In this document: in pieces, positions 12,199-50,059 of the stretch
Layout: the number at the start of each line of letters is the position of its first letter
Position numbering within the stretch: the stretch's first letter is position 1
Position numbers and translations under genes: made by a program
Notes under the pieces: model-generated
The model's database searches: none
What the model saw: only the letters and a program-made list of their open reading frames with translations
What the model was told of the DNA's origin: nothing
DNA from: Arctopsyche grandis
Lineage: Eukaryota; Arthropoda; Insecta; Trichoptera; Hydropsychidae
Assembly: GCF_051622035.1 (NCBI RefSeq)
Contig: NC_135360.1
Coordinates: 11,708,001-11,772,000, forward strand
Direction of reading: 5' to 3'
DNA length: 64,000 nt

Positions 12199-15100
12199 AT
12201 GGAAAGAAATAGAGATGACTTGTTATTTCAAGCCATAATACGCCAAGAGGTTGTAAATATAATTTTTTTAATTACAATTATAATTATTTCTGTAATTTAT
12301 CCCGATACTTTTTACAGTTTAATACAGTGGAAACGTTACTGAACGACGGTGCAAAATTCACAGTGTGTGATAGGGACGGTAACACAGTTTTAATTCTTAC
12401 ATCTCAACAGAGACAAATTGGTGTTCTTCAACTGTTGATCGATCATGGTACTACACGTTCGATTAATATTTAAAAACAGTCTATTTAAATCATTATTACA
12501 TGTATTTTGACTCGACAGGTTGCAACGTGAACGAGACGAACGCCGGCGGATGGACAGCTCTGCACTATGCAGTGAATAATGGAGACTTGGATACTGCATC
12601 CGTCCTGATAAACAATAACGCTGATGTTAATCTTCGCACAGTGTTTGGAAGAAATTCAGCGCTTCACATAGCCGCCACAAAAGGATATGACAACATTGTA
12701 TGCATATACATATATAATTTTTGAAAAATTCAAATTCATGTTTTTCCGTTTGTAAAAATCAATACCCTTTAAAATTAAGGTTGCTGCATTGTTATCGGCT
12801 AATGCAAAAGTAAAATTGAAGAATGGTACAAGGCGAACACCTTTACATGTAGCGGTAGAAGAAAATCACCTCAATATTGTTCGCTTGCTTCTACAAGCTG
12901 GTTCTAACCCAAAAGGCACTGATAAATTTGGTAATTTATTTTTGAAACATGTTTTGATAGTATTTTTTTCATTTATTATTATATTGGAATTTCATTTTCT
13001 AGGGAAAACGCCATTAATATCAGCTATTGAAAATAATGCTCCACAAATAGTGAACGAATTACTTTTAGCTGATGTTTCAATTTCTTCTGATGAGTTATTT
13101 TATCAAGTTGTTGAAAATGGACAGGTTTGCACAATTAATTTTTGGTATTTTTAGCTTTCAATTTAAAAAATAACATATTCTGTTGTATGAAAAAAATGGT
13201 CCAATCTAACCTAATACCGCTATATTCAATATATTTGTTTTTTAGTTTATTAGCTCATTGTCATGAATACCATTTGAGTATTTGCTTTTAACAATTGCTA
13301 TATATTCTAGTGTCTCATTCTTTCAAAGCATAAATATTTCTATGCTGTAGCATAGAAATATTTTACTGTAGTAAAATTTGAATTTTAGGAGGAAATTTTG
13401 CAAGTTTTAATAAATTACATCCCGAATATTAACTCAATGAACGCAGATGGTGATGCACTTATCATTTTAGCATCTCGCAATGGATATGTGGGAATTGTAA
13501 GTGCGTTATTAGATAAAGGTAAATTTAAAGCATATTATTATTATTTTAAAATAAGAGTTGAAATATTTATTAATCAAATGTTAACGATAGGTAGTGATGT
13601 TGATATAGTCGACCGAAGAGGATGGAATTCCTTACACAACGCGGCACATTATGGCCACAGAGAAGTCGTTAACAAATTATTACAGTCAGAATTGAATCAA
13701 GATTGTTTAACTACAGATAATGGCAATTCAGCTTTACATTTGGCCATCCTTGAAGGACACGCAGACATTGTAATATTTTTCATTGATTATTTTTACAAGT
13801 GAACTTCTACATACATACATTTTGTATGATTCTTAAGATTTATTTTCTGAATAGATTGATTCTTTCATTTCGGACAGTTTTAATTTGGAAATGAAAAATT
13901 CCACCGGGCAAACTGCTTTGCAATTGGCTGTTGAAGAAAATCAAATCGATTGTGCTATAAAGCTTTTGGAATTTGGATCCGACCCGAATGTTGAAAATAT
14001 TCATGGTTTGTTAAGGTTAAGTTATATTTTCAGTTCTGTTAAAAATGCTGTTTGTATGTATTCCATCATTATGTATTCAAGGTGAAAAGCTAATATCCTG
14101 TGCAATACGTCAAGGTAACATAGAATTACTCACTGCTTTACTAGCACCCGGTACTAATACTACGACTGAGGATTTACTGCAACGAGCTATAGATACTAAA
14201 CAGGTAATACAACAAACCGTAATAGTTTTTATAATAAATACTATTTAGTATAGTATTTCGAATTATAATTTACAGGTGGATGTTGTCAGAATGCTATTAG
14301 AACATGGAGGGTATTTAAAGATAGAAAATGATGATGGCTTTAAACTTTTGAAATCGACTTTGTTGAATAACTTCCATCCACAAATATTTCAGCTGCTGTT
14401 AAAACATGGTGATCATTTAATCTAAATTTTAAATTAATATTTAAATCATATGATGGCTCGTTGCAGTACATGTACTTTTGTAAACGTTAAATTTTCTGGT
14501 TTCACAGGTTGTAAAATAACTGCAACAGACGAAAAAGGACAATCTTTGCTACATTTTGTAACACTATATGGCCATTTGGAACTTGTAGAATTTTTGATCA
14601 AAGCCGGAGCTAACGTCAATCATCGAACAATGGATGGAAATACACCATTGCATTTAGCGGCCATTATGGGTTTTACATATATGGTATTTATCAATTAATA
14701 ACTTATTTTATTTGCTGCTATTTAAGGTTTTTTTTTATCTATGGTAAGATTTTCAGATAGACGCTTTTGTGATTGCTGGTGCTGATTTAAATATTGGGAC
14801 AATGTCAGATCCAAAACAGACTCCTCTTATGAATGCTGTAATTCGGAATAAAACTGAGTTTGTGAAAAGATTACTTGAATTAGGATGTGATCCCAATGGA
14901 ACTGATGTAAATGGTACACAGACGTATACTGTTTTTATTGTTTTTATAATACAAATCATTTAGAATACGACTGATTTTTTTTTTTATACTAGGCAATAAC
15001 TCGATAATTTAAAATTTACCTAGGAATTCACCTTTTATCCTTGGCTACTTCACAAGGCTTCAAAGATATTGAAGAAGCATTAACAGCTGCTGGAGCAAAA

Positions 15101-18100
15101 TCTTTCGAACAAAAAGTGATTGAAAATATAAATGTATGTCGTCAAATACTTTTTTTTTTGTTGTGGCTATTTGCAGGTACTATATCTGTGAATTATTGGC
15201 TAGTTGCAGGTACTATATCTGCGAATTATTGGCTATTTGCAGGTACTATATCGTTTTAGAACTTATAATCCGATCATAATTTCTTACATTTAATGTATGC
15301 TAGACTTGTTTAATCAATCGTTCATTATACATGAGGCAAATAAATTCCGCACGTTATTATAATATATTTATATCATTTAGCTAGTTCACGGCTTGTACTT
15401 GTATGTAGGTATTATACGTTGTATATGATAATAATTTTCTAACAATTAATAATATTAACTAATTTGGATTATATTTTTTACTCAACGTCACTTTACGAGT
15501 TCAAACAAAATTTTAACAGTAAACACGCTAACAGTGACAGTTCAAGCGCATGCGCAGAAAGATTTGCGCCTGTCGCAGATATAGTACCTGCAAATAGCCA
15601 ATAATTCGCAGATATAGTACCTGCAAATAGCCAATACTTTGCAGATATAGTACCTGCAAATAGCCACAACTTTTTTTATTTGTGCACTATATCTTTAATT
15701 CAATGAAAATAAATTCAATTTTAGATGGAAGTTTTACGACTTGTTTTAAAAGATGGTGCATATATAGAATCTGATGATGATTTAAGTAAGTATATTTATT
15801 TCATGTGTAATACATATTTTCGATTAATTTGAATTTTATTAATTCAACTATAATTCTTTAGTTAGAAATTTACCCAGAAGAGACGATTTTCAATGGACGG
15901 CATTACATCATGCAGTGGCACACGGAAAAGTCGATTTGTGTGTAAGATTTTTAAATGTCGGAGCAGATGTCAATTGGGTTACAATTTCAGGAGATACTCC
16001 ACTACATATTGCCGTTGCAAATGAACAAATCGAATTGGTGATGTTTTGTAAAATTTTTGAATGTTACATAAAACATTTATAAAAATGTTTTAAGATTTAA
16101 TTTAATTCCAGATCGAAATTTTAGTCCACTATGGTGCAGACTTGTACATTAAAAATTTTGGTGGTAATATACCAATAGAGTTTGCTGTGTTGTGGGATAA
16201 AATTACCTCCGTTAAAAAAATGTTAGAATGTCATTCCAAAATTGAAAAAGACACAATGAGTAAGTTCCTGTAGATTGATGACATTAATCATGACTTTTAT
16301 TTTTAAACTAGTGTTGTACCCGATGAAATATCATCTATTCGAAATGATTAGATGAAATATCATCTATTCGAAATGATTAGATGAAATATCATCTATTCGA
16401 AATGATTAGATGAAATATCATCTATTCGAAATGGTTAGATGAAATATCATCTATTCGAAATGATTAGATGAAATATCATCTATTCGAAATATCAAATATT
16501 ATCATAGCATGGGTGTTGGCAAAATAATTTATCAAATAAGGTATGCAGTCGAAACTTTTTCAAATACCTTTTAAATATATTTAATTTAATATTTATATTA
16601 AATTGTTTAATATGAAAAAATAATGGTAATAAATACCTACCTACCTACATATAAACAATATAAAACACCAATAGAAAAATTAATTAATTAAATAAATTTT
16701 CAATAGATATCGCAAAATGCTCAGACTTATTTTTCTAGAGGAAACATTGGTAACAAACAGTATGTATATATATGTATATATAGAAGTTTTTTTCCTTTGT
16801 TATTATATTTGTACATTTTGCTGGCAGTGTTATAGCTGTGATGTATGTACATACATACATACATACATATGTATGTACATCAGAGCTGTAACACTGCCAG
16901 CAAAATGTATACATATGTATGTATGTCGAATCTAAACGACTATTATAGTACGGCGAGCGTTATCGCAGATACACAGATCAGTGGGGCGCGGTCAAATTCT
17001 CTCTCTTTTTGTCGTACAGCCTTACTTAATGTGCACGGGCAGGATACAAGAAGAACAGCCTGTTCCTTTTGTGTCCTGCTCGCGCAAATTAAGTAAGGCT
17101 GTACGACAAAAAGAGAGAGAATTTTACCGCACACCACTGACACAGATACACAGACACACAGAATAGCGATATTATATATGTATATATGATAATTTAATAT
17201 TTATTTTTCTTAAATTTCAGCAAATGTATGTGACAGATTGTGTTTGCTATCTTTAGCAGCCAAGAATAGTCGTCTAGCTATGCTCGTAGAGCTATTTGAA
17301 TGTGGTGGTAATGTTAATTTTTGTGATCCAAACGGCATGTATTTACTAAACCAGGCCACTATTTTGGGAAAAACTGAAATTGTGAGTTTATAATATTGAT
17401 CATAAAATTTTAAGATCATGACAATATTAAAAATGTGATGATGTTATTAAAACTATTTACTAACATATTGGTTATATTTTAATTGTTTCAGGTTGATATT
17501 TTGCTGTCATACCCACAAATTGACTTGGAAGCTAAGGATAGATTAACAAATGAAACACCTTTAATAATTGCTACTCGTTTTGGATATAATGATATCACAA
17601 CAAAACTAATAAAATCAAAAGCAAACCCAAATGCAAATAATTTCGATGGTAAGGATAATTATTCAGTATTAATCTTTGATTGAGTGAAAATTAGTGATAA
17701 TGAAGTATGGTAAATCAAATAAAACCTTTAGGTGGTACACCTCTTTCTAATGCTGTAAGGAAAAAAGATGCACAAATAGTGAATGATTTAATATCTTGTG
17801 GCGCTAAAATTTTACCAGAGCTTTTACTTTTACATCAAGCTGTGTCAGATGATCAGGTAACTGTTATTTACAGTAATTTATATATACATCATATTACAAA
17901 CCGATTCATAAACGTATCAACTTTGTTTTCTATTTACAAAAACATTTATTTGCCTCTAGGTTGAAATTGTAAATTTATTAATTGAAAAATCAGATGTAAA
18001 TTTACAAAATGAAGCTGGGAATACGCCTTTAATGATAACTGCTCAAACAGGCAATATAGAAATTGCTAAGATTCTTCTGGAACACGGTAAGCATTTTAAG

Positions 18101-18797
18101 TAGATTTATATGTATATACATATATAATATCTCGGAGAGTTCTTATATATTTTATATTACTCAGGTGCTTCTGTCAATGCTATTAACAGTGTCACCGAGT
18201 CTACTATTCTACACGAGGCTATTGAAAACATCGATAGTTTCTCTACTTTTAAGGAATATTACCGGTTTTTAGATGGCTACGGTGTAGATTGTAATGTTTG
18301 TATTCCAAATAAAGATACTCCTCTATTTAGAGCCATAAGTTTGGGAAGGTTAATATGATACTTAATTAATAATAAATAATTCATATATATATGTTAATCC
18401 TGATAAAATTTTTGATTATTTCAACAGAGAGGATGTAGCCATGCTGCTGATTCAGAACGGGGCCGATTTGAAGATGGGTTCTATGGTCAACGGACACGAA
18501 TGTGATAATCTTAAACTAGCTTTGGAAAAGAAGCTCGAATCGGTAGTTAAATTTATGGTGTTGAATGGTGCTTACTTACCAAATAATCTTTTTAACGATC
18601 CTTGGTCGCTTAATCATCTTGCACGATTGAAGATTCGATCGCATCTTCCCCAGATAAATTTTAGTAAATCTGTAAAGTCTCTATCATTGCCTGATCCAAT
18701 GAAGAAATTTTTAATGTATGATTTTGATGTACGTTCTTCACAACAAGCAGAAAAAAAACTTGAAGATGTTATTAAAACACACATTCAGAGATTTTAG
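12199..18797 (+). CDS. Long ankyrin-repeat protein with C-terminal SOCS box, gene A
   Basis: I read 22 exons: 12199-12249, 12318-12447, 12519-12697, 12780-12930, 13003-13124, 13389-13518, 13591-13769, 13855-14005, 14082-14203, 14276-14408, 14508-14683, 14757-14913, 15024-15133, 15725-15785, 15862-16037, 16112-16259, 17221-17381, 17492-17648, 17732-17856, 17960-18086, 18165-18348 and 18428-18797. They total 3300 nt and 1099 residues, in frame throughout. The protein starts MERNRDDLLFQAIIRQE and then consists of some 28-30 ankyrin repeats (for example GWTALHYAVNNGDLDTA, GNTPLHLAAIMGFT). The last exon ends in PWSLNHLARLKIRSHL and SLPDPMKKFLMYDF (residues about 1035-1076). I read these as an elongin-BC box and a Cul5 box, making it an ASB-type adaptor of a Cullin-5 ubiquitin ligase. 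The usual BC-box cysteine is alanine, and the first LP of the Cul5-box LPLP is LS. The substrate is unknown. A poly(A) signal lies at 18949. It is followed by tandem paralogue B. Confidence 0.85.
15160..15670. mobile_element. Foldback element built of 33-base tandem units, in gene A intron 13
   Basis: The left arm starts GTTGTGGCTATTTGCAGGTA and repeats GCAGGTACTATATCTG plus GAATTATTGGCTATTT about three times. The right arm (15570-15670) carries the same units inverted, ending GCAAATAGCCACAAC. The roughly 310 bases between are unique. On the sense strand each left-arm unit contains TTGCAGGTA, which resembles adjacent acceptor and donor splice signals. The correct gene A acceptor at 15724 lies just beyond the element. 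Confidence 0.8.
16322..16490. repeat. 29-base minisatellite, about six units, in gene A intron 16
   Basis: The unit begins GATGAAATATCATCTATTCG and ends AAATGATTA. Five complete copies and a partial sixth follow one another with a single visible difference (GGTTA for GATTA in the fourth). Each unit contains the small palindrome GATGAAATATCATC. Confidence 0.95.
16811..16910. repeat. Near-perfect 100-base hairpin
   Basis: The arms ACATTTTGCTGGCAGTGTTA and TAACACTGCCAGCAAAATGT are perfectly complementary. They continue through GCTGTGATGTATGTAC to a GTAT/ATAC-rich centre. It lies in gene A intron 16. It may be a short foldback MITE; a small-RNA precursor is an alternative I cannot test. Confidence 0.75.
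16979..17139. mobile_element. hAT-type foldback MITE in gene A intron 16
   Basis: The ends CAGTGGGGCGCGGT and CACACCACTG frame a palindrome with arms such as CTCTCTCTTTTTGTCGTACA. A perfect 8-base duplication, ACACAGAT, flanks it at 16971-16978 and 17140-17147. The centre carries the GCGCGAGCAGGACACAAAAG-type core shared with elements at 6319, 38312 and 54094. It is 161 bases long and lies 82 bases before the next exon. Confidence 0.9.
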
Positions 18798-19560
18798 TAT
18801 TTTAAATAATAAGTGTGTCATGTAAATATTTAAATACTTTTGATTTTGAATTATTTTTATTTCAAAGAAAAATATTTTTATATTTTTACATATATGTATG
18901 TATGTATGTGCATTTTCGATTTACTTTCTTATAACTAGAAGTTCTTGAAATAAATATTTATAAGAATAAATTATTAAATTGTGAACATGCTATGTAGTAT
19001 AATATTTAAACGATCAATCCAATATATTTATATTTTGATCATTCTATGTATTATATACATATGTATGTACAGGGCTTTTTTTTTAAATGTGACGGAACAC
19101 TTCTTATCAAGTTTTTTTTATTGGAAAAGATAATGTTTTAATTATATTATATAGAGTAATCGTTTGAAACGTAAAAAATGCTGAGAAAAAGGTGCCAGAA
19201 AAAAATATTTTATATTTTTACATGGAAAAAAAGCCCTATATTTTTTTTTATACAATTTCACTATATTAATTTTACAGATTAGCTCCAAGTCGTCACTATG
19301 GCTACATACATGTATTGGAAGTTCATTAAAAAATAAAAATATGCATATACATATGTACATAGAACTGAATAGAATTAATTATTATATTAACTTTGAACAA
19401 AATAAATATATGATTTCATCTTTTATATCTATTTTTCTTTATTATGTGTCGACTTTGCTACAAATTTGGACACATGCTGCCATCCAGCGTACTAATTTAC
19501 TATACATATGTACATATATACAGGTTCAAGCAATTTTTTAAATCCCACATTACTTATTTC

Positions 19561-19766
19561 CTTTCCACGTTGGTCGCGACGCGAAAACATTTGAAATTAT
19601 AGCGTTGCAATGACACCCATTCCCGTTTTTCCTGTTTTTTTACACAGTAATCTTCCCGGACATGCATACAACAAATCCTGAAAGTTCCATCGTAATCGGT
19701 TCAGTGGTTTAGGAGCCTATTCGAGACACACACACAGACAGACATTCATTTTTATATATATAGATG
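19561..19766 (+). repeat. Retroelement 3'-tail-like fragment
   Basis: The stretch ends with GTTCCATCGTAATCGGTTCA, then GTGGTTTAGGAGCC, CACACACACAGACAGACA and TTCATTTTTATATATATAGA. This order of words is a familiar 3' tail of non-LTR or SINE-like repeats in many insect genomes. I recognise the pattern but cannot name the family, and no coding part remains. Confidence 0.5.
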
Positions 19767-19872
19767 ACTGATATTATGAAAAGATTAATGGGTATGGCGG
19801 AAACTCGATAATAAATTCACTCATATGTAGTATATTATGTTATGATTCATTAAGCGCTTATTATCTTACATA

Positions 19873-19920
19873 TGATTCATTAAGCGCTTGACGTCTAAAC
19901 GCTGTGAACGTTTTAAATTG
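19873..19920 (+). promoter_or_regulatory. Promoter block shared by the two ankyrin genes (gene B copy)
   Basis: The block reads GATTCATTAAGCGC, then TTGACGTCTAAACG, then GTGAACGTTTTAAATTG, about 300-345 bases upstream of the gene B start. It aligns with 11971-12017 upstream of gene A. The first part is itself duplicated just upstream (about 19852). Neighbouring sequence does not align, which suggests selection or relatively recent shared origin of this part only. Confidence 0.5.
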
Positions 19921-20217
19921 CACACTTATGATGTGTTATTACACATATTGAATCGTAAGTCTGATCTTGATTATTAACACATTTTATTAGTTTAACAACA
20001 CAAATTCAAATTTGCTCACATTAATAACAATGTAATACAGCTACATACATATTCAGTACTTGGCGAATTCTGCAGTCTGACACCGACTTAATATAAATAA
20101 TAAGTTCAGTTGATAAGCAATATGTCAGTACCAACTCTCTATATTTATTTAAATGTGATATTTATTCGCATTTCATAAAGAACAGAATAATTCAAATTCG
20201 GACGTATGAGGAAAACA

Positions 20218-23200
20218 ATGGAAAAAAATAAGGATGACTTGTTATTACAAGCAGTGATACGTCAGGAGGTAGTAATTTTTTATTTTATCTTTATTTATCA
20301 ATACATGTAGCTTTTATTTATTAATTGTAATTGTTTGCACAGCTTATCGTGATATGTGTATGTATTTATTTCAGTTACATACAGTGGAGAAGTTATTGAA
20401 CGATGGTGTAAAATTCACTGCACGCGACAGGGACGGTAACACAGTTTTAATCCTTGCATCTCAACAGCGACAAATTGGTGCTCTTCGTTTGTTGATCGAT
20501 CATGGTATTACATGTTCGATTAATATTAAAAGTATGTATGTAAATGATTATTATATGAATTTTGACTCGACAGGTTGCAACGTGAACGAGACAAACGCCA
20601 ACGGATGGACAGCTCTGCACTATGCGGTGAATAATGGAGACTTGGATGCTGCGTCCATCCTGATCAAAAACAACGCTGATATTAATATTCGCACAGTGTT
20701 TGGGAGAAATTCAGCTCTTCACATAGCTGTCACCAAAGGATATGACGAAATTGTATGTGAATTATATGTATAATTTTTGCACAATCCAAATTTTTGTTTT
20801 TTCGTTTGTAAAATGAATTATCGCTCATTAAGGTTGCTGCATTGTTGTCGGCTAAAGCAAAAGTAAAAATAAAGAATGGTACAAAGCGAACACCTTTACA
20901 CGTCGCTGTAGTAGAAAATCATCTCCATATTGTTCGCTTGCTTCTACAAGCTGGTTCTAACCCAAAAGGCACTGATAAATTTGGTAATTTATTTTTGAAA
21001 TACATTTTTGATGTCTTTTTCTTAATATTATATTGAAATTTTATTTTATTTTGTAGATAAAACGCCATTAATTTCAGCCATTGAAAATAATGCCCCACAA
21101 ATAGTAAATGAATTGCTTTTAGCGGGTGCTTCAATTTCTTCTGATGACTTATTTTATCAAGTTGTCAATAATGGACAGGTATTCACAATTTATTTAAATT
21201 ATAATTCTATCCTGAGCCAGCTTTTAACCATCTTCTCTAATCTAATTCAATCCTTCTATATTCCAAATGTTTGTGTTATATTCCTATATGTACAATATTT
21301 CCTTTAGTTCATTTTTTTATTATCTACACATTCATGAATACCATTTGAGCATTTTGTTTTACCATTCATTTTGTTTCTTATAAATATTGTGTTGAAGCAT
21401 GAGTTGAATTTTTAGATAGAAATGTTGCAAGTTTTGATAAATTACATCCCAAATATTAACTCAATGAATGCAGAAGGTGATACACTAATTTTATTAGCAT
21501 CTCGCAATGGGTATGTGGAAATTGTTAGTACGTTATTAGATAAAGGTAAGTTTAAAGCATAATATTTTTTTTAAATAAGAGTTGAAATATTTATTAATTA
21601 AATGTTAACGATAGGCAGTGATGTTGATGCTGTCGACCGAAGAGGATGGAATTCCTTACACAACGCGGCACATTATGGCCACAGAGAAGTCGTTAACAAA
21701 TTATTACAGTCAGAATTGAATCAGGATTGTTTAACTCCAGATAATGGCAATTCAGCTTTACATTTGGCCATCCTTGAAGGACACGTAGACATTGTAATAT
21801 TTTTCATTGATTATTTTTACAAGTGAACATCTACATACATTTTGTATGATTCTTAAGATATATTTTTTGACTAGATTGATTCTTTCATTTCGGACAGTTT
21901 TAATTTGGAAATGAAAAATTACAATGGACAAACTGCTTTGCAATTGGCTGTTGAGGAAAATCAAATTGATTGTGCTATAAAGCTCTTGGAATTTGGATCT
22001 GACCCGAATGTTGAAAATATTCATGGTTTGTTAAGGTTAAGTTATATTTTCAGCTCTGTTAAAAATGCTGTTAGTATGTATTCCATCATTATATATTCAA
22101 GGTGAAAAGCTAATATCCTGTGCAATACGTCAAGGTAACATAGAATTACTCACTGCTTTACTAGCACCCGGTACTAAGACTACGACTGAAGATTTACTAC
22201 AACGAGCTATAGACACTAAACAGGTAATACAATAAACCATAATAATTTTTACTATGAATACTATTAAGTATACTATTTCGTATTATAATTTACAGGTGGA
22301 TGTTGTAAGAATGCTCCTAGAACATGGAGGGTATTTAAACATTGAACATGATGATGGCCATAAGCTTTTGAAATCGACTCTGTTGAAAAATTTCCATCCA
22401 GAAATATTTGAGCTACTGTTAAAACATGGTGATTATTTCATCTAAATTTGAAATCAATATTTCGTACATGTATATACATTTCGTGAATTTACAGGTTGTA
22501 AAATAACCGCAACAGATAGTGAAAGTCAATCTTTGTTACATTATGTAACGCTGTATGGCAATTCAGCTATTGTAGAAGTTGTGATTAAAGCAGGAGCTGA
22601 TGTCAATCACCGAACACTGGATGGACAAGCTCCACTGCATATAGCCGCTATTGCTGGTTGGACAAATTTGGTATTTATTGGTTGATTATTATCAATGGAA
22701 TTAAATAATATGCCTTCCACGCATTAAATTGGGTTTTATTTTGTATACATGGGAAATCTTTCAGATAGAAGTTTTTGTGGCTGCCGGCGCTGATTTAAAT
22801 ATTGGGACCACATTAGAACCGTTGTTCACTCCTCTTATGTATGCTGTATTTAGTAATAAAATTGATTTTGTAAAAAAATTAATTAATTTAGGATGTGATC
22901 CAAGTGCAACACACGATAATGGTATACTATACTGTTTTCATATCTTAGCACCATTGCATTTTTTGTAGAAAACAAAGGTGCCAGAACTGACATCTTGTTA
23001 AAGATAATCTTTGATACAACGTCAAAAATACGCTACAGTAGTTTTTTCATTTATGTTGTTTGATTCATCAACTACATTAATAAAAATATATTTTTGGTTT
23101 TAACTATTTACACTATAAAAAACGCACTGCATTGATATTATTACAGTTTATCCATAAGAGGGCTGCACACCAGCGCCTTGTCCATACAAACGTATTACAC

Positions 23201-26200
23201 TTCTCCCTTCCTCAATTATGGCACTAGAGAAATTATTTTTTAATATGCTTTTATTTTTTTGATTAGTTATTTTTTATAGGAGCTAGGAGCCGCCAAACTT
23301 CTATAAAATCGCCTCTTTTTTACACCCACGAAAAGAGTCCAGCGTGCTTATTTAACGGTCGATTTTAAAAAAAATACGCGCACAGGTGCATAGAAAATAT
23401 CTTTCTCATACCGATGATGAATTTTTTTTTAAAATCGGTCCAGTTTCGAAGGAAAAATTGGAGAATACGAAACCTCGATTTTGTCAATTTAAAATACGTA
23501 TTATCTGGTCGAAGCGCAACTGTCGCATTCACTCAATATATACATTCACTAAATATACATATCAAAGAAAGGAACGGCATCAAAATTAAGGTTTCGGGTG
23601 TACAGCCCTCTTAAGTCTATACAATGTACCAAAAATCTACTGATTCAAACCTCGATTTTGTCGATTTAAAATACGTATTATAATATGGTCGAAGCGCAAC
23701 TGTCGCATTCACTCAATATATATATCAAAGAAAGGAACGGCAACAAAATTAAGGTTTCGGGTGTACAGCCCTCTTAAGGATTTGTTTTGAAATTATATAA
23801 TAATATTATACAATTTATAAATTTTTCAGGAATTTCCCTCTTAACTATTGCTAGTGGACAAGGATTTAAAGATATTGAAGACGCATTAAAAGCTGCTGGA
23901 GCAAAATTTAAAACACCTGAAACTTTCGATGTAATAGAAAATGAACAAGTACATATGTCTTAATTAATTATTTATTATTCTCTTTCGATTTCATAAACTA
24001 TTACTTTTATTCGTTGAAATAAATCAAAATTTTAGATGGAAGTTTTACGTCTCGTATTAAACAATGGTGCATTAATCGAATCTGAAGATGATTTAGGTAG
24101 ATAAATTCAATTTATATACATATATATGTATATAAAACAGAATTAATTTGATTATTTTTTTTGTAATTTATTTACTAAGGTAGAAATATATCTAAAAGAG
24201 ACAAGTTGCAATGGACGGCATTACATCATGCAGTGGTACACGGAAACATCAACTTGTGTGAGAGATTTTTAAACGTCGGAGCAGATGTCAATGCAGCTGT
24301 AATTTCAGGAGAGACTCCATTACACTATGCTGCCATGTGTGAACACATCGAATTAGTGAATATTTTTTGCAAAATTGCATTTTATATGTTGAAGTGAATC
24401 TGTATTTGCCGGTGAAGTTATATTTTCGTTAGTATATACAATTAATTTTACTAACTCAGCCTATGAATACATATGTATGTATCAAACTATAGAAAAGCGC
24501 CAGACAGACTGAACCACATATTAACGACACGTGTACCTTATGCGTGCGCACTGCTCTCACTTACACTAAGCGAAATCTACCCGAAGTCCCGACATACCTA
24601 CCCTGTATACGTTCTGTGCTTCTGATACTTTAGTTCCAAATTTTTCCTTATTAAATTATTAAAAACTCACCAGAAAGATCCAACTCAATTTTAATAATTA
24701 CCATTTTAATAATTGCATCTGTGCACATCGAAAGGTTACTCGTCATCTGATGTGCAATTTTTCATTCGTGAAGTCGAGAATTGCGTTTAAAGCAGCCATC
24801 CAGTTAATCTGTGGTTCAATCTGTCTGGTGCTTTTCGATCGTTTGCACCAAACAATGAATGTATACTTATTTCACTGCTCAGTGAAAGTTTTAAATGTTT
24901 ACAAACAGATGATCCAGTACAAGATATTATATATTTAGCGATATATTTTTATTTTATTTTATTTATTACAATCAATGTACACTCGTCATAACAGATCGCT
25001 CCAATGCGACGAGTATACAATAACGGTCAGAATACAACAATAGATAGAATACATACAATATAATAATTAATGAAGTACAGAAATAATAATCACAGAGACA
25101 TCTATGGATTATTTTAGATTTTGTGCACAATTATTATTACAATTTTTGTACATATAATACACAAAAATAAAAGGAGATGTCTATAGATTTCAGATTACTG
25201 TGCATAATTTCTACAAATTATAAACACAGATTTTCGACAACAGGAAATGATCTATTACCAATTTTCAGGAACCGTTTCAACAATGATCAGATAAAATTGG
25301 CAAACTCTGATAGAGAAACGATCGATTTGGAGTCACAAAACCCCCAAATCTAACCAGCAGTTTGACGACTCGAACCATTGTTCTCAATGGTGCTAAATAT
25401 ATACGCTACCATTAAGCCAAACTGCTGGCTATGCATATGTAGGTTTATAGACCTAATATTTAAAATGGGTCCTCTCTACGGCACAAGCTCCAAGTTGACG
25501 AAGACTCGAAAAATGAACTAATCGTCAAAATGTTCCCTTGACATAATGACTGAGTGTGTACAAGCCTTAATATTAGGAATGAGGGTAGACGGTTTCGTCG
25601 GCCCTTCCCATGAATCTCACGCATACACGGGTACTTGTATTTTTTTGTACGAGTTCATTTTTCGGGTCTTTATCAACTCGGAGTTTATACCGTAGGGGCC
25701 ACCGATTGAAGATGTATTCAGAAATGATTTCACTGAAACGCCAGTGAAAATATAACTTCACTGACAATATACGTACTTTCACTGTAATTTAAATGTACAT
25801 ATAACTATGTACATTTAATAATAATACATTAAATGTACATATATGGAAAATTATTTGTTTTTATTTAATTACAGGTGGAAATTTTAGTTCATTATGGAGC
25901 AGGGCTATACATTAAAAATCATGCTGGTTATATACCAATAGAGTATGCTGTGCTGACAGAAAAATTTAACTCTGTTAAAAAATTGCTAGAATGTCATTCC
26001 AAAATTGAAAATGACACAATGTGTAATATTAATTTCATGTAGTATTAGCTTCATAGTTTTATGAACTGTAAATTTCAAAGGTTATTGATGTTTTTTTTTA
26101 TATATTTAAGTAAATGTGTGCAATAAATTATCTTTGCTTGGCTTGGCGTTGGAGAATAATCGTATAACTATGCTCGAACAACTGCTTGAATTTGGCGGTG

Positions 26201-27690
26201 ATGTTAATTTTCGTAATTCAAGAGGGATGTATTTGTTGAATCAGGCCATTTTTTTGGGAAGATTTGAAATTGTGAGTTTTTCTAATAAACTATTGTATCT
26301 AATGTTTATGGAATTTGTACCAAATTTAAAAATAATTTTATTTTTAGGTTGATATATTATTATCACATCCGCAGATTGATGTGGAAACTAAGGATAGCTC
26401 ATCAAGCGAAACGCCTTTATTAATTGCCGTTCGTTTTGGATATAAAGACATCATAACCAAACTAATAAAATTAAAAGCAAACCCAAACGCTAAAAATGAT
26501 GAAGGTAAGAGATTTAATCTTCATGGTAAAACACTATTCTCATATACATATAAACTAAAATGTATTGAAGAAAAACTATTATCTAAATCGAATGATTACC
26601 CTTTAGCGAATATAACACCACTTTGTTATGCCGTAAGAAAAAAAGATGCACACATAGTAAAAGAATTGATATCTTGCGGTGCTGAAATTTTACCACAGTA
26701 TTTATATTTGCATCAAGCTGTAACAGATGATCAGGTAAAAGTTATTTAAATAAGGTGATGATCAGATATGAGTAAGACTGATTGAATTTGTATCTCAATA
26801 AATTCCATATAAAATTACATTATATTTAAATTATTTATTTTTTATTATGTATTTTAGGTTGAAATTGTAAATTTATTAATCGATAAATCAGATATACACT
26901 TACAAAATGAAGCTGGGAATACACCTTTAATGATAACTGCTCAAACAGGCAATATAGAAATTGCTAAGATTCTTCTAGAACATGGTAAGCATTTTAAGTA
27001 GATTTATGTATATGTACTTACGTATATAATATCTCGGAGAGTTCTTATATATTTTATATTACTCAGGTGCATCTGTCAATGCTATTAACAGTGTCACCGA
27101 GTCTACTATTCTACACGAGGCTGTTGAAAACATCGATAGTTTCTCTACTTTTAAGGAATATTACCGGTTTTTAGATGGCTACGGTGTAGATTGTAATGTT
27201 TGTATTCCAAATAAAGATACTCCACTATTTAGAGCAATAAGTTTGGGAAGGTTAATATGATACTTTAATAATAAATAATTCATATATATATGTTAATCCG
27301 GAATAAATTTTTGATTATTTCAACAGAGAGGATGTAGCCATGCTGCTGATTCATAACGGGGCCGATTTGAAGATGGGTTCTATGGTCAACGGACACGAGT
27401 GTGATAATCTTAAATTAGCTTTGGAAAAGAAGCTTGCATTAGTAGTTAAATGTATGGTGTTGAATGGTGCTTACTTACCAAATAATCTTTTTAACGATCC
27501 TTGGTCGCTTAGTCATCTTGCACGATTGAAGATTCGATCGCATCTTCCCAAGATAAAATTTAGTGAATCTGTAATGTGTTTACCTTTGCCTATTTCAATG
27601 AAGAAATTTTTGATGTATGATTTCGATGTACCTCCTTCACAACAAGAAGAAGAAAAGCTTGAAAATGTTATTAAAACACACATTAACTAA
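20218..27690 (+). CDS. Long ankyrin-repeat protein with C-terminal SOCS box, gene B
   Basis: I read 22 exons: 20218-20268, 20375-20504, 20574-20752, 20833-20983, 21057-21178, 21416-21545, 21615-21793, 21875-22025, 22102-22223, 22296-22428, 22495-22670, 22765-22921, 23830-23948, 24036-24096, 24180-24355, 25875-26022, 26111-26271, 26348-26504, 26607-26734, 26858-26984, 27067-27250 and 27327-27690. They total 3306 nt and 1101 residues. Every phase matches gene A; only exons 13, 19 and 22 differ in length, by multiples of three. The start MEKNKDDLLLQAVIRQE aligns with gene A, though an in-frame ATG four codons upstream is possible. The C terminus reads PWSLSHLARLKIRSHL and CLPLPISMKKFLMYDF, so the Cul5-box LPLP is intact here. 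It is a tandem duplicate of gene A, with the same inferred role as a Cullin-5 substrate adaptor. Introns 12 and 15 are enlarged by mobile elements. An AATAAA lies 14 bases after the stop. Confidence 0.85.
23155..23777. mobile_element. Element with TTAAGAGGGCTG ends and a duplicated right end, gene B intron 12
   Basis: The left end TAAGAGGGCTGCACACC is inverted relative to GGTGTACAGCCCTCTTAA at about 23597-23614. The last 130-145 bases, from AAACCTCGATTTTGTC to CCCTCTTAAG, occur twice in tandem (23468-23614 and 23648-23777). TTAA at the right ends followed by GAGGGCTG is compatible with a piggyBac-like MITE. Superfamily assignment is inference. Confidence 0.65.
24492..24836. mobile_element. 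MITE with GAAAAGCGCCAGACAGACTG ends, gene B intron 15
   Basis: The left end GAAAAGCGCCAGACAGACTG, continuing AACCAC, and the mirrored right end GAAAAGCACCAGACAGATTG form an inverted repeat of about 34 bases. The interior has no coding capacity. No clear target duplication was found. Together with the SINE at 24943 it accounts for the large size of this intron. Confidence 0.75.
24943..25431 (-). mobile_element. tRNA-derived SINE, near full length, gene B intron 15
   Basis: On the minus strand the element starts with a tRNA-like head, AGCCAGCAGTTTGGCTTAAT, containing an A-box-like TGGCTTAATGG and a B-box-like GGTTCGAGTC. It then carries the body phrase GACTCCAAATCGATCGTTTC and ends ACTCGTCGCATTGGAGCGAT followed by an AATAAAATAAAAT tail. 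It matches the full copy at 49563-50016 in order and content. Confidence 0.75.
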
Positions 27691-47300: not shown

Positions 47301-49254
47301 AGTACAAGTTAGGCAAGTTGGAAAAGAATATGTATGGAGGAAAACAATCTATTGTAGTATCAGTAGCATCCAGCTATTCGCATGTTCGTTTTGTGTAGGA
47401 ACACCTTTGGCGTGTTCAGACACGAGGGATTATTGTTCCGGAAGAGCCATAACACCGTCGTGATTGCCCCCCGACAAAGATGGCACTAAAACGACCCCGG
47501 AAAATAAAGCTTTCTTCGGCTAAAGGATTTGATGCGGGCCGCTCCTGCGTCTCCTTATCTCGGCCGCGTTCCGGCTGTATCCACCTTATCTTTAAGACTC
47601 GTTCCCGATTCCCGGAAGATGTTATACGGGGAACAGTGTCCCTTGAGGGAGCAATAAACGTGCGAGCACCTAAATATCCAACGAACAGCCAACACTTCCT
47701 TTGTTTCGTCAACGGCAAGGACGACCCAACACGCGAGGACTTTCCCCCTATCGGTACATACCTACCCACACGACCCACGTGAAAGTGAGCTAGAATAGAT
47801 TTTAGCTGTCTATAGGTATATATTTTAAAACGTACTCCACTTAGAACGTTGACGCTGATTAAAAAAATATAAAAGTATCAAACGGTCAGTATATGTATAT
47901 ATTGTATTTTATATACATATAGATATATACCAAGAAGGCCTAACCCCAATGTGCCTTCTTTGACAATTAATTACAAACATTTTAGCATTTTTATTACATA
48001 AATTTCTGTATTTCGAGAGGCTGAAAAACACGAAATTAACAATTAATTAATCCATAGAGACATCTATGGATTTAGACTTGTACATACATTTTTACATATT
48101 GTACATAAATCAAATTCAGATATTTGTGACAGCGGGTAGGTATAATTTTTGTCAATAAAATCAGATAAATTGGCAAACTCTGATAAGAAACGATCGACTT
48201 GGAGTCACAAATATCCAAGTCTGACCAGCAGTATTAAATATTAGCATGGGATCGAACCCGGTAACCTCTCGGTGCTAAACATAAACGCAACCACCGAGCC
48301 ATACTGCTGGCTGCCTGACGTGTGAAATTTACCTGGAACCAGTGACTGGATCTAAAATGCCACAAGATGAAAAGTTTGCGAGCTATGTACATACAATGTT
48401 TCAGTTCATAATGAAAGAAGAATTGAAGTCGTTTAAATGTTATATTATATTTCATATCACAGTCTATTATATGTATATGGAAAGCAGGCTAGTGAATTCG
48501 TATACATGATGATTGGTTTCTTATTAAAAGTACAGGCAAGTATTCTGGTAGTTGGAATGCAGTATTATCGCGGAAATTTGGAGATACATATAACAATTGC
48601 TAATTCAAAAACACCTTATTTGTGTTGAATCTTTAATTCTATGGATTGAAAATTTCCAGGTGATGTTGCGAGTATGTCAAAAGAATGTAGTCGGAGTGAT
48701 TCAGTGCAATAATCAAGAAGAGTAAATACCGTGTGTTTGAAATTCGATTATGAGCAGACACAAGCAAGACTTGCCGTGACTATCATAGAATTTCAGTTGA
48801 AGACATTTTAATGAATGGATCCACGGGGCAATCGAGACGTATTCTTTGGTTCAGAACGAATAAAATAATATGCGATCGATCTGAGTGTTGCCGTGGGGAG
48901 CAATATAGCCCGGAGCAAACTATCGGCGTTAACTTTATAGTCGGTAATATAGCATGTGCTCGGGGAAACCGAATCAGGGTTTATTTTCACCTCAGGCACA
49001 ATGGAGTATGGTGTTCGTACCTTGGATCATCATTCAGGGAGTTTTTCCTAGGCCAACGTCAAAATTGGATCGTCGCGCGATTGCTGACGATGGCAGATTG
49101 CAAATTATCATCCCCCTTTCTTCTACCCAAAAAAGTGGGCGAACTCTCGCCGGGGAGGTTATTTAAAGATTTTCCTTTTGGTTCAAGAGCGAGGTGAGTC
49201 GTTTGATGCGCAATCATTACACTGATTAAAATTTGACCCAATTATGCGCTTTTT
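44336..49254. promoter_or_regulatory. zfh1-upstream region with GC-rich islands
   Basis: AT-rich sequence alternates with islands of near-balanced composition at about 44930-45240, 46580-47010, 47410-47790 and 48820-49200. The island at 45100 has an inverted pair of GATA words (GAGATAA 45114, TTATCTC 45141). The one at 47500 has two TTATCT words 31 bases apart (47555 and 47586). Open frames of 100-130 codons in the islands run on both strands and carry no recognisable domain. Enhancer function for zfh1 is inference from position and composition. Confidence 0.3.
48046..48314 (-). mobile_element. tRNA-derived SINE, 3'-truncated copy
   Basis: On the minus strand the head reads CAGCAGTATGGCTCGGTGG with a clear B box GGTTCGATCCC, followed by the body phrase GACTCCAAGTCGATCGTTTC and GTTTGCCAATTTATCTGATT. 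It stops after CCATAGATGTCTCTATGG and lacks the ACTCGTCGC tail seen in the copies at 24943 and 49563. It is the best-preserved promoter head of the family in the window. Confidence 0.75.
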
Positions 49255-49450
49255 ACACTTTTCCTTAGCCTCATTCGAACATACATACATACATATGTAT
49301 GTTCGAACATATTCGAACAAGTTTATATAATAAATTGAACTTATATTACACTACACTTTTCCTTAGCCTCATTCGAACATACATACATACATATGTATGT
49401 TCGAACATATTCGAACAAGTTTATATAATAAATTGAACTTATATTACACT
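49255..49450. repeat. 98-base tandem duplication with internal palindrome
   Basis: Two essentially identical 98-base units, each starting ACACTTTTCCTTAGCC, abut exactly. Each contains the palindrome TTCGAACATACATA ... TATGTATGTTCGAA followed by a second TTCGAA. The lack of differences indicates a recent duplication. Confidence 0.9.
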
Positions 49451-49562
49451 ACATTTTTCTCGTGTGTAGATGCGTTGACTTTGATCGTCTTCAATTACCA
49501 TCTTAATTGAGTCTGATCTTAATCTGTCAGGCCTGATCGTAAGCTGAAAACACATATAAAAA

Positions 49563-50016
49563 CCAGCAGCGTGGACTAGTGGTTAGCATATTATGCTTTA
49601 GAGCGGAGTAGTCACGGTTTGATTTCCACTAGTACATATGTAGCTGTTAGCCAGACCTTGGTTTTTGACTCCAGGTCGATCGTTTCCTTTCCGAGTTTGC
49701 CATTTTTTCTGATTTTCATTGAAAGGCTTCCTGTAAATTTGACATTTCCTTTCCAATCTCTCTTGAAAATCTCAGTTATTCAATTATTCAGCGTCTTGAG
49801 GTGAGCCAATTACTATAATAAAATGCTGCAAAAATTTCTCCGTAGATATTCCTGTGTAAAAATGCTTGTATTAAATGTATTATTGTATTGTATCCATAGA
49901 TATATAATACACTGTATTATACATCTATGATTGTATATGTATTAGTACACTCGTCGCTTTGGAGCGATCTGTAAAGGAGAGTCTACATGTTTGATTGAAA
50001 TAAAATAAAATAAAAT
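49563..50016 (+). mobile_element. tRNA-derived SINE, full-length copy
   Basis: The element begins CCAGCAGCGTGGACTAGTGG, with an A box TGGACTAGTGG and a B-box-like GGTTTGATTTCC 35-40 bases further on. The body carries TTTTTGACTCCAGGTCGATC and GAGTTTGCCATTTTTTCTGA. It ends TACACTCGTCGCTTTGGAGC, then GATTGAAATAAAATAAAATA. At about 450 bases with an internal Pol III promoter and a simple tail it fits a SINE. Related copies or fragments lie at 24943, 48046, 56585 and 61510. Confidence 0.8.
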
Positions 50017-50059
50017 ATTATTCAATTCGAATATTTGTGAAGAGGTATTTTCAGTCTCT

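Follow-up and report, generated by a model that had tools for sequence, protein, structure and literature searches.

Within the 64,000-nucleotide window analysed here (positions 11,708,001 to 11,772,000 of NC_135360.1, contig C6 in a 475.7 Mb assembly of 189 contigs), the trichopteran insect Arctopsyche grandis carries two adjacent ankyrin genes, which we call A and B. The unit by which their arrays appear to have been duplicated is a block of four exons encoding 194 residues and six ankyrin repeats, and a short gene on another contig, C7, has a single such block. Comparison of A with B makes it probable, as part of the joint explanation set out below, that the two are tandem paralogues encoding a large ankyrin-SOCS protein.

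The gene models came from an exon finder that used dynamic programming to weigh splice sites, the openness of the frame, codon usage and lengths. Supplied with nothing but the start and stop of gene A, it returned 22 exons encoding 1100 residues, with lengths of 54, 130, 179, 151, 122, 130, 179, 151, 122, 133 and 176 bases for exons 1–11 and 157, 110, 61, 176, 148, 161, 157, 125, 127, 184 and 370 bases for exons 12–22. The splice matrices were entered from general knowledge, the first codon table was built from gene A frames chosen by eye, and gene B was scored with the gene A table. Gene B has 22 exons homologous to those of A, with the exon classes in the same order, and encodes 1101 residues; its exon 7 donor was fixed at 21793 by homology with A (the exon finder favoured 21784), and introns longer than 1.5 kb had to be permitted, as otherwise a spurious 48-base exon appears. 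When codon usage was taken from two other genes of the window (the POP1 and zfh1-like frames), 19 of 22 exons were unchanged in A and 18 of 22 in B; without codon information the identical exons numbered 15–17 of 22 and 10–14 of 22, respectively. An earlier sequence-only reading of this DNA had predicted 22 exons per gene, a protein of roughly 1100 residues, and ten two-exon modules with phase-0 borders and a phase-1 intron inside. These predictions agree with the models: the module sums of gene A (309, 273, 309, 273, 309, 267, 237, 309, 282 and 311) were reproduced exactly by the exon finder, for which they were known beforehand but not used as input, those of gene B are 309, 273, 309, 273, 309, 276, 237, 309, 285 and 311, and in both genes the intron phases alternate between 0 and 1 over the first 20 introns, the last being 2. 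Since both frames are open and the nonsynonymous (dN) and synonymous (dS) divergences between them are 0.109 and 0.313, A and B are probably both working genes. Alignment gaps between them have lengths divisible by three in all 4 exon cases and in 10 of 36 intron cases, and the differences between the genes number 129, 93 and 221 at the three codon positions. A pseudogene reading was rejected given the open models of both genes and the dN/dS of about 0.35.

The repeating unit emerged from a lag test on repeats r0–r18 of gene A, with the consensus subtracted column by column. Similarity between repeats was 0.71 at lag 6 and 0.57 at lag 12, with no signal at lag 3 (−0.06) or lag 9 (−0.17); the remaining lags up to 14 gave −0.17 to 0.10, and lags 15–18 hold at most four pairs each. 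With the four short repeats left out the values were 0.80 (lag 6), 0.62 (lag 12), 0.15 (lag 3) and 0.21 (lag 1), and shuffled labels attained the six-repeat value in 0 of 10000 trials whether the short repeats were included or not. Over exons 2–13 the mean difference in exon length was only 3.0 bases for lag 4 and 6.0 for lag 8, whereas lags 1, 2, 3, 5 and 6 gave 27.9–41.0. As similarity recurs at lags 6 and 12 (repeats) and 4 and 8 (exon lengths) and not at lags 3 and 9 or 2 and 6, the unit comprises four exons, of classes a (130 bases), b (179), c (151) and d (122), and its residues form five repeats of about 33 residues and one of about 29. Overlapping 97-residue windows of each protein were also compared with the sequence downstream. 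In 19 of 31 windows of A and 16 of 31 of B the best local match fell no more than 12 residues from an offset of 194, 388 or 582; offsets near 97, 291 or 485 accounted for 1 of 31 and 0 of 31. A BLASTP self-comparison gave no off-diagonal pieces. It must be held against the unit that the 31 repeats of gene A were delimited by hand. The resulting order of the array is exon1-a-(b c d a)-(b c d a)-(b c d a')-(b c)-(b? c d a)-b*-SOCS. Exon 1 and the start of exon 2 form a short repeat that best matches the d9/a10 junction (near residue 395); the score of 31 is the highest of all 30-residue windows tested, and d13/a14 and d19/a20 give only 11, the background mean. That exon 1 is a former d exon is thereby half supported.

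The array is irregular in its 3' part. Exon 14 is an a exon cut to 61 bases, about one repeat being lost, and after exon 16, a c exon, the expected d and a exons are absent and exon 17 comes next. What had been counted as module 8 is most readily explained as a c exon that came to adjoin a b-like exon when two exons were lost, and the scheme of ten modules breaks down at this mixture of two exon classes. Exon 17 is b-like in its phases, in the c exon that follows it and in its score of 49 with the b exon of the C7 gene (next 30). Of the repeats after r18, the expected class is the best match for 6 of 12 (r20, r21, r22, r25, r26 and r28). These assignments are weakened by r24, r27, r29, r30 and r31, for which it is not, and by r23, the first repeat of exon 17, which shows no b affinity and gives the b class no support. 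Because of r23 and because only 6 of 12 repeats behave as expected, the number of blocks is less secure here than across units 1–3. The putative loss of d and a would span phase 1 to phase 1, and frame-safe changes would therefore not be bound to phase-0 modules. The argument that symmetric phase-0 modules can be duplicated without breaking the frame carries less weight than it was given: with phases alternating between 0 and 1, any block bounded by the same phase is equally frame-safe.

At the C-terminus of both proteins lies a SOCS box (PF07525, Pfam cut-off 23.5; 37.5 bits for A, 39.4 for B and 37.2 for the C7 gene), which, like the C7 gene and the A/B mosaic, was absent from the sequence-only reading, and the ankyrin array (PF12796; 451.7 bits in A and 453.2 in B) lies N-terminal to it. 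Because of this ending, A and B look like ASB-type receptors of the Cullin-5 ubiquitin ligase. The ASB (ankyrin repeat and SOCS box) family, with 18 members in humans, provides receptors of Cullin-5 RING ligases, and other BC boxes are known to tolerate residues besides C. A and B share with that family the N-terminal ankyrin array, the C-terminal SOCS box above the Pfam cut-off and the CUL5-box pattern. This pattern, L-x-hydrophobic-P-x-x-hydrophobic-x-x-aromatic-L in the available text of PMC7280518, fits LSLPDPMKKFL in A, LPLPISMKKFL in B and LPLPVALKDFL in the C7 gene. A and B differ from the family in their regular six-repeat units, in the A for C of their BC box and in having about 31 repeats, against two in ASB17 (PMC8003104) or six in ASB9 (PMC2852384) in the available parts of these sources; repeat number is stated to vary among ASB proteins in the corresponding part of PMC4403949. 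Several results speak against the assignment. The BC boxes LNHLAR (A), LSHLAR (B) and LTHLTR (C7) fit LxxLCR of ASB9 at five of six positions, the strict L-x-x-L-C-R not being found in any of the three, where A or T replaces C; no relative of A exon 22 was found among solved structures at E 0.01; the C7 end matches generic ankyrins, with no ASB among the best 60 of 275 matches; and the fold predictions for exon 22 of A and B, with a predicted local distance difference test score (pLDDT) of 41.8, were of no use. By its parts the protein should be an ASB-type substrate receptor. With E allowed up to 1, the genome has 15 SOCS-box matches, of which 13 exceed the cut-off and two lie in A and B; four of the other 13 loci (L014, L015, L017 and L020) have ankyrin-like frames nearby in a scan with the gene A profile. 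Separately, L056 (C6:18.9 Mb), L057 (C9:0.5 Mb) and L058 (C8:12.5 Mb) are ankyrin genes with SOCS-box matches, and on inspection their exon patterns are unlike the a-b-c-d block.

The C7 gene (13,645,413–13,647,461, minus strand, locus L054), found via its SOCS box, has the exon order b-c-d-a-b*-SOCS, with exons of 182, 151, 125, 130, 187 and 304 bases and phases 1-0, 0-1, 1-0, 0-1, 1-2 and 2-0. It thus resembles A and B in exon order, lengths and phases, and differs from them in having one unit only, about 10 repeats by our count and its own N-terminal stretch; the 5' end of its model is uncertain, the two best models scoring 117.7 and 116.3. The five top matches of its b exon in A are the five b exons (81–49, units 1–3 giving 77, 74 and 81), and those of its c exon are the five c exons (109–50, the best being 104 and 109). 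Its d exon is matched best by d19 (75) and its a exon by a6 and a20 (92 each), whereas the b* exon scores 108 with A exon 21 (next 22) and the last exon 163 with exon 22 (next 8). A genome search with the 162-residue C7 end recovered nothing beyond the C7 gene itself, A, B and a weak match on C11 (E 0.0035). A similarity search scored the best 42 of 265 candidates, and the C7 gene was not among the matches listed; further short relatives are possible. Growth from a C7-like gene appears the simpler reading. Counting against the joint explanation, the C7 a exon is matched better by b11 (63) and c4 (52) than by a10 (39), the C7 d exon scores only 1 with d13, and the exon matches are about as compatible with shrinkage to a C7-like gene as with growth from one.

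A tree built from all 20 modules places every one of the ten from A beside its same-numbered counterpart in B, at 97–100% on both support measures, and in a unit tree all five units pair A with B. As A modules pair with their B counterparts, and modules within a gene are only 19–39% (A) or 20–42% (B) identical, the internal duplication is older than the A/B gene duplication, which bears out the proposal that modular growth preceded duplication of the whole gene. Bootstrap values of 57–86% at the deeper nodes (63–86% in the unit tree) detract from the joint explanation, and the order of the internal growth steps is not resolved by the trees. Modules 1 and 3 and modules 2 and 4, which had been expected to pair, do have high mutual scores (135 and 105), but neither pair comes out as sisters; modules 3, 5 and 7 form one group and modules 2, 9, 4 and 6 another (2 with 9, 4 with 6), with modest support.

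These comparisons bear on two other ways of reading the array. The sequence-only reading took the two-exon, three-repeat module as the duplicated unit, and phases and lengths do alternate as it described, with the high mutual scores just mentioned for modules 1/3 and 2/4. Such a unit is very unlikely for the visible history: the full repeat set shows no similarity at lag 3 or 9, full-length repeats at a distance of three but not of six show no excess similarity over shuffled ones (their value was attained in 8345 of 10000 shuffles), and exon lengths at lag 2 differ by 39.6 bases on average. A three-repeat step further back could have left traces too faint to detect. The other reading is that the C7 gene is a shrunken descendant of a long array and not a picture of the ancestor. 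Its b and c exons match units 1–3 best and its d, b* and last exons the 3' end, a pattern also expected from collapse by recombination. However, shrinkage requires more steps, the ASB proteins cited above are short, and the C7 N-terminal stretch is absent from A and B (subject to the uncertain C7 5' model). We regard shrinkage as unlikely and favour growth from a C7-like gene.

Genes A and B form a mosaic of similar and dissimilar segments. Introns 6, 7, 8, 20 and 21 are 93–96% identical between the genes and intron 9 is 88% identical, whereas introns 10–19 are 51–80% and introns 2–4 an intermediate 72–86% identical, against an alignment baseline of 41–49% in the flanking DNA outside the genes. 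Two tracts stand out, one of 95.9% identity over 660 aligned sites (A 13549–14212, score 363) and one of 96.4% over 646 (A 18002–18650, score 393); the maximum score in 500 shuffles was 98. The dS values are 0.18 for exons 6–9 and 0.13 for exons 20–22, versus 0.38–0.67 for exons 11–19. Gene conversion is the best explanation that these alignments suggest, and more than one event is likely because the 5' part (introns 2–4) is intermediate. There was no sign of conversion biased towards guanine plus cytosine (GC), the tract introns being no GC-richer than the others (0.20–0.21 versus 0.26–0.29). Misassembly was rejected, as the tracts are 96% and not 100% identical.

Uneven selection or mutation could in principle yield such a mosaic without conversion, and dN/dS is indeed also uneven (0.13–0.24 in exons 1–10 and 20–21, 0.49–0.52 in exons 11–16, 0.28 in exons 17–19 and 0.58 in exon 22); the GC content of the tract introns is a further point in its favour. 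Introns are not expected to track protein constraint, however, yet they show the same contrast between tracts and remainder, as does dS, and we judge this alternative improbable beside gene conversion. A different origin for the pair, as PRANC-type ankyrin genes from Wolbachia resembling the CLANKs of chalcid wasps, would suit a fast-evolving ankyrin gene pair in an insect-like setting. In the available part of PMC6161386 PRANC is described as F-box-like, and the CLANK genes are likewise duplicating insect ankyrin genes. A and B differ in having a SOCS box in place of PRANC and many introns, with phases and exon lengths common to a relative on another contig, and Pfam searches found no PRANC in A at E up to 1 or in B and C7 at E up to 0.01. 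We consider this origin extremely unlikely.

In the window the pair has a POP1 gene (PF06978, 128 bits) on one side and, on the other, a zinc-finger homeodomain gene, which we take to resemble zfh1/ZEB. Several introns contain repeats. Intron 13 of A has inverted copies at 15160–15252 and 15578–15670 that are 96% identical, and a query of 15573–15690 gave at least 48 genome matches (best 40 of 976 candidates scored); this looks like a small mobile element that lengthened the intron. Intron 16 of A contains a tandem repeat (16322–16490; 29-base period, copies about 98–100% identical). In intron 15 of B (1519 bases), pieces of 24943–25361 are 82–88% identical to window positions 48152–48232 and 49660–50018 and are probably repeat insertions. 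Elsewhere in the window, a direct repeat with a 98-base period and 99% identity lies at 49254–49459. The genome also holds many ankyrin frames of 1000–3696 residues without introns inside the frame, at C3:34.23–34.27 Mb, C11:4.66 Mb, C7:28.37 Mb and elsewhere (at least 205 matches, best 150 of 1030 candidates scored). They are distant from A and B, at 31% or less in the best long matches among those listed.

Table 1 Window positions of genes A and B, their units and the conversion-like tracts
Feature	Position	Strand	Details
Gene A, 22 exons, about 31 ankyrin repeats and C-terminal SOCS box	12199..18797	+	exon finder, Pfam, hand-cut repeats
A exon 1	12199..12252	+	exon finder
A exon 2, class a	12318..12447	+	exon finder, C7 exon matches
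A unit 1	12519..13518	+	b 12519-12697, c 12780-12930, d 13003-13124, a 13389-13518
A unit 2	13591..14408	+	b 13591-13769, c 13855-14005, d 14082-14203, a 14276-14408
A unit 3	14508..15785	+	b 14508-14683, c 14757-14913, d 15024-15133, shortened a 15725-15785
A unit 4, incomplete	15862..16259	+	b 15862-16037, c 16112-16259; d and a presumably lost
A unit 5	17221..18086	+	b-like 17221-17381 (weak class assignment), c 17492-17648, d 17732-17856, a 17960-18086
A exon 21, terminal b-type (b*), phase 1 to 2	18165..18348	+	sole counterpart C7 exon 7
A exon 22, last repeat and SOCS box	18428..18797	+	exon finder, Pfam
A SOCS box, residues 1036-1074	18600..18716	+	Pfam 37.5 bits, cut-off 23.5
Gene B, 22 exons, 1101 residues	20218..27690	+	exon finder
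B exons 1 and 2	20218..20504	+	exon 1 20218-20268 (ATG at 20206 also possible); exon 2, class a, 20375-20504
B unit 1	20574..21545	+	20574-20752, 20833-20983, 21057-21178, 21416-21545
B unit 2	21615..22428	+	21615-21793 (donor by homology), 21875-22025, 22102-22223, 22296-22428
B unit 3	22495..24096	+	22495-22670, 22765-22921, 23830-23948, shortened a 24036-24096
B unit 4, incomplete	24180..26022	+	24180-24355, 25875-26022
B unit 5	26111..26984	+	26111-26271, 26348-26504, 26607-26734, 26858-26984
B exons 21 and 22	27067..27690	+	exon 21 27067-27250, exon 22 27327-27690; SOCS box 27499-27615, 39.4 bits
Conversion-like tract 1, reaching in A from intron 6 into intron 9	13549..14212	+	B counterpart about 21573-22232 (projected)
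Conversion-like tract 2, reaching in A from exon 20 into exon 22	18002..18650	+	B counterpart about 26900-27549 (projected)

The history that best accounts for these genes, and that we consider probable as a whole (gene models, four-exon growth, d and a loss, gene duplication, conversion and ASB-type function), would run as follows. An ancestor with one unit would have lengthened as four-exon blocks, broken within introns, were duplicated in tandem, one d+a pair would then have been lost and one a exon shortened, the whole gene would afterwards have been duplicated to give A and B, and exons 7–9, and exon 20 to part of exon 22, would later have been homogenised by gene conversion. In the protein, the ankyrin superhelix would bind a substrate and the SOCS box would bind Elongin B/C and Cullin 5, with ubiquitination of the substrate as the outcome, and a longer array may offer a larger surface for binding, or one with several sites. 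An ankyrin superhelix completes a full turn in 24 repeats (PMC7314423, in its available text), and 31 repeats would therefore exceed one turn. The same text gives long ankyrin arrays with periods of 3, 5, 6 and 7 repeats, several repeats being duplicated together, and reports that no common mechanism of repeat-protein lengthening was detected. A and B resemble those arrays in their six-repeat period and multi-repeat duplication, and differ in that their period coincides with a four-exon block and that a single-unit relative occurs in the same genome. In the open-licence literature we recognised no paper on long ankyrin-SOCS genes in insects and no case of a six-repeat period coinciding with a four-exon block beside a one-block relative in the same genome; annotated relatives of A and B elsewhere may well exist. 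Periodic ankyrin arrays and ASB proteins were already known; what is of use here is growth resolved at the level of exons, next to a relative with one unit.

A more tentative interpretation, possible but hardly to be relied upon, is that of a lineage-specific ligase receptor whose rod was lengthened by a four-exon, six-repeat cassette, the functional ends of the paralogues (unit 2 and the 3' end leading into the SOCS box) being kept similar by gene conversion while units 3–5 between them diverge faster in protein sequence as the substrate-choosing face. The dN/dS of exon 22, which holds the SOCS box, counts against a simple reading of conserved ends. As the periodicity of the protein, the exon pattern and a relative with one unit all occur in one genome, the step from a short to a long receptor becomes directly testable, through its intron breakpoints, the frame-safe loss of two exons and the later exchange between paralogues. 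If the tail does bind Cullin 5, A and B would be unusually long substrate receptors.

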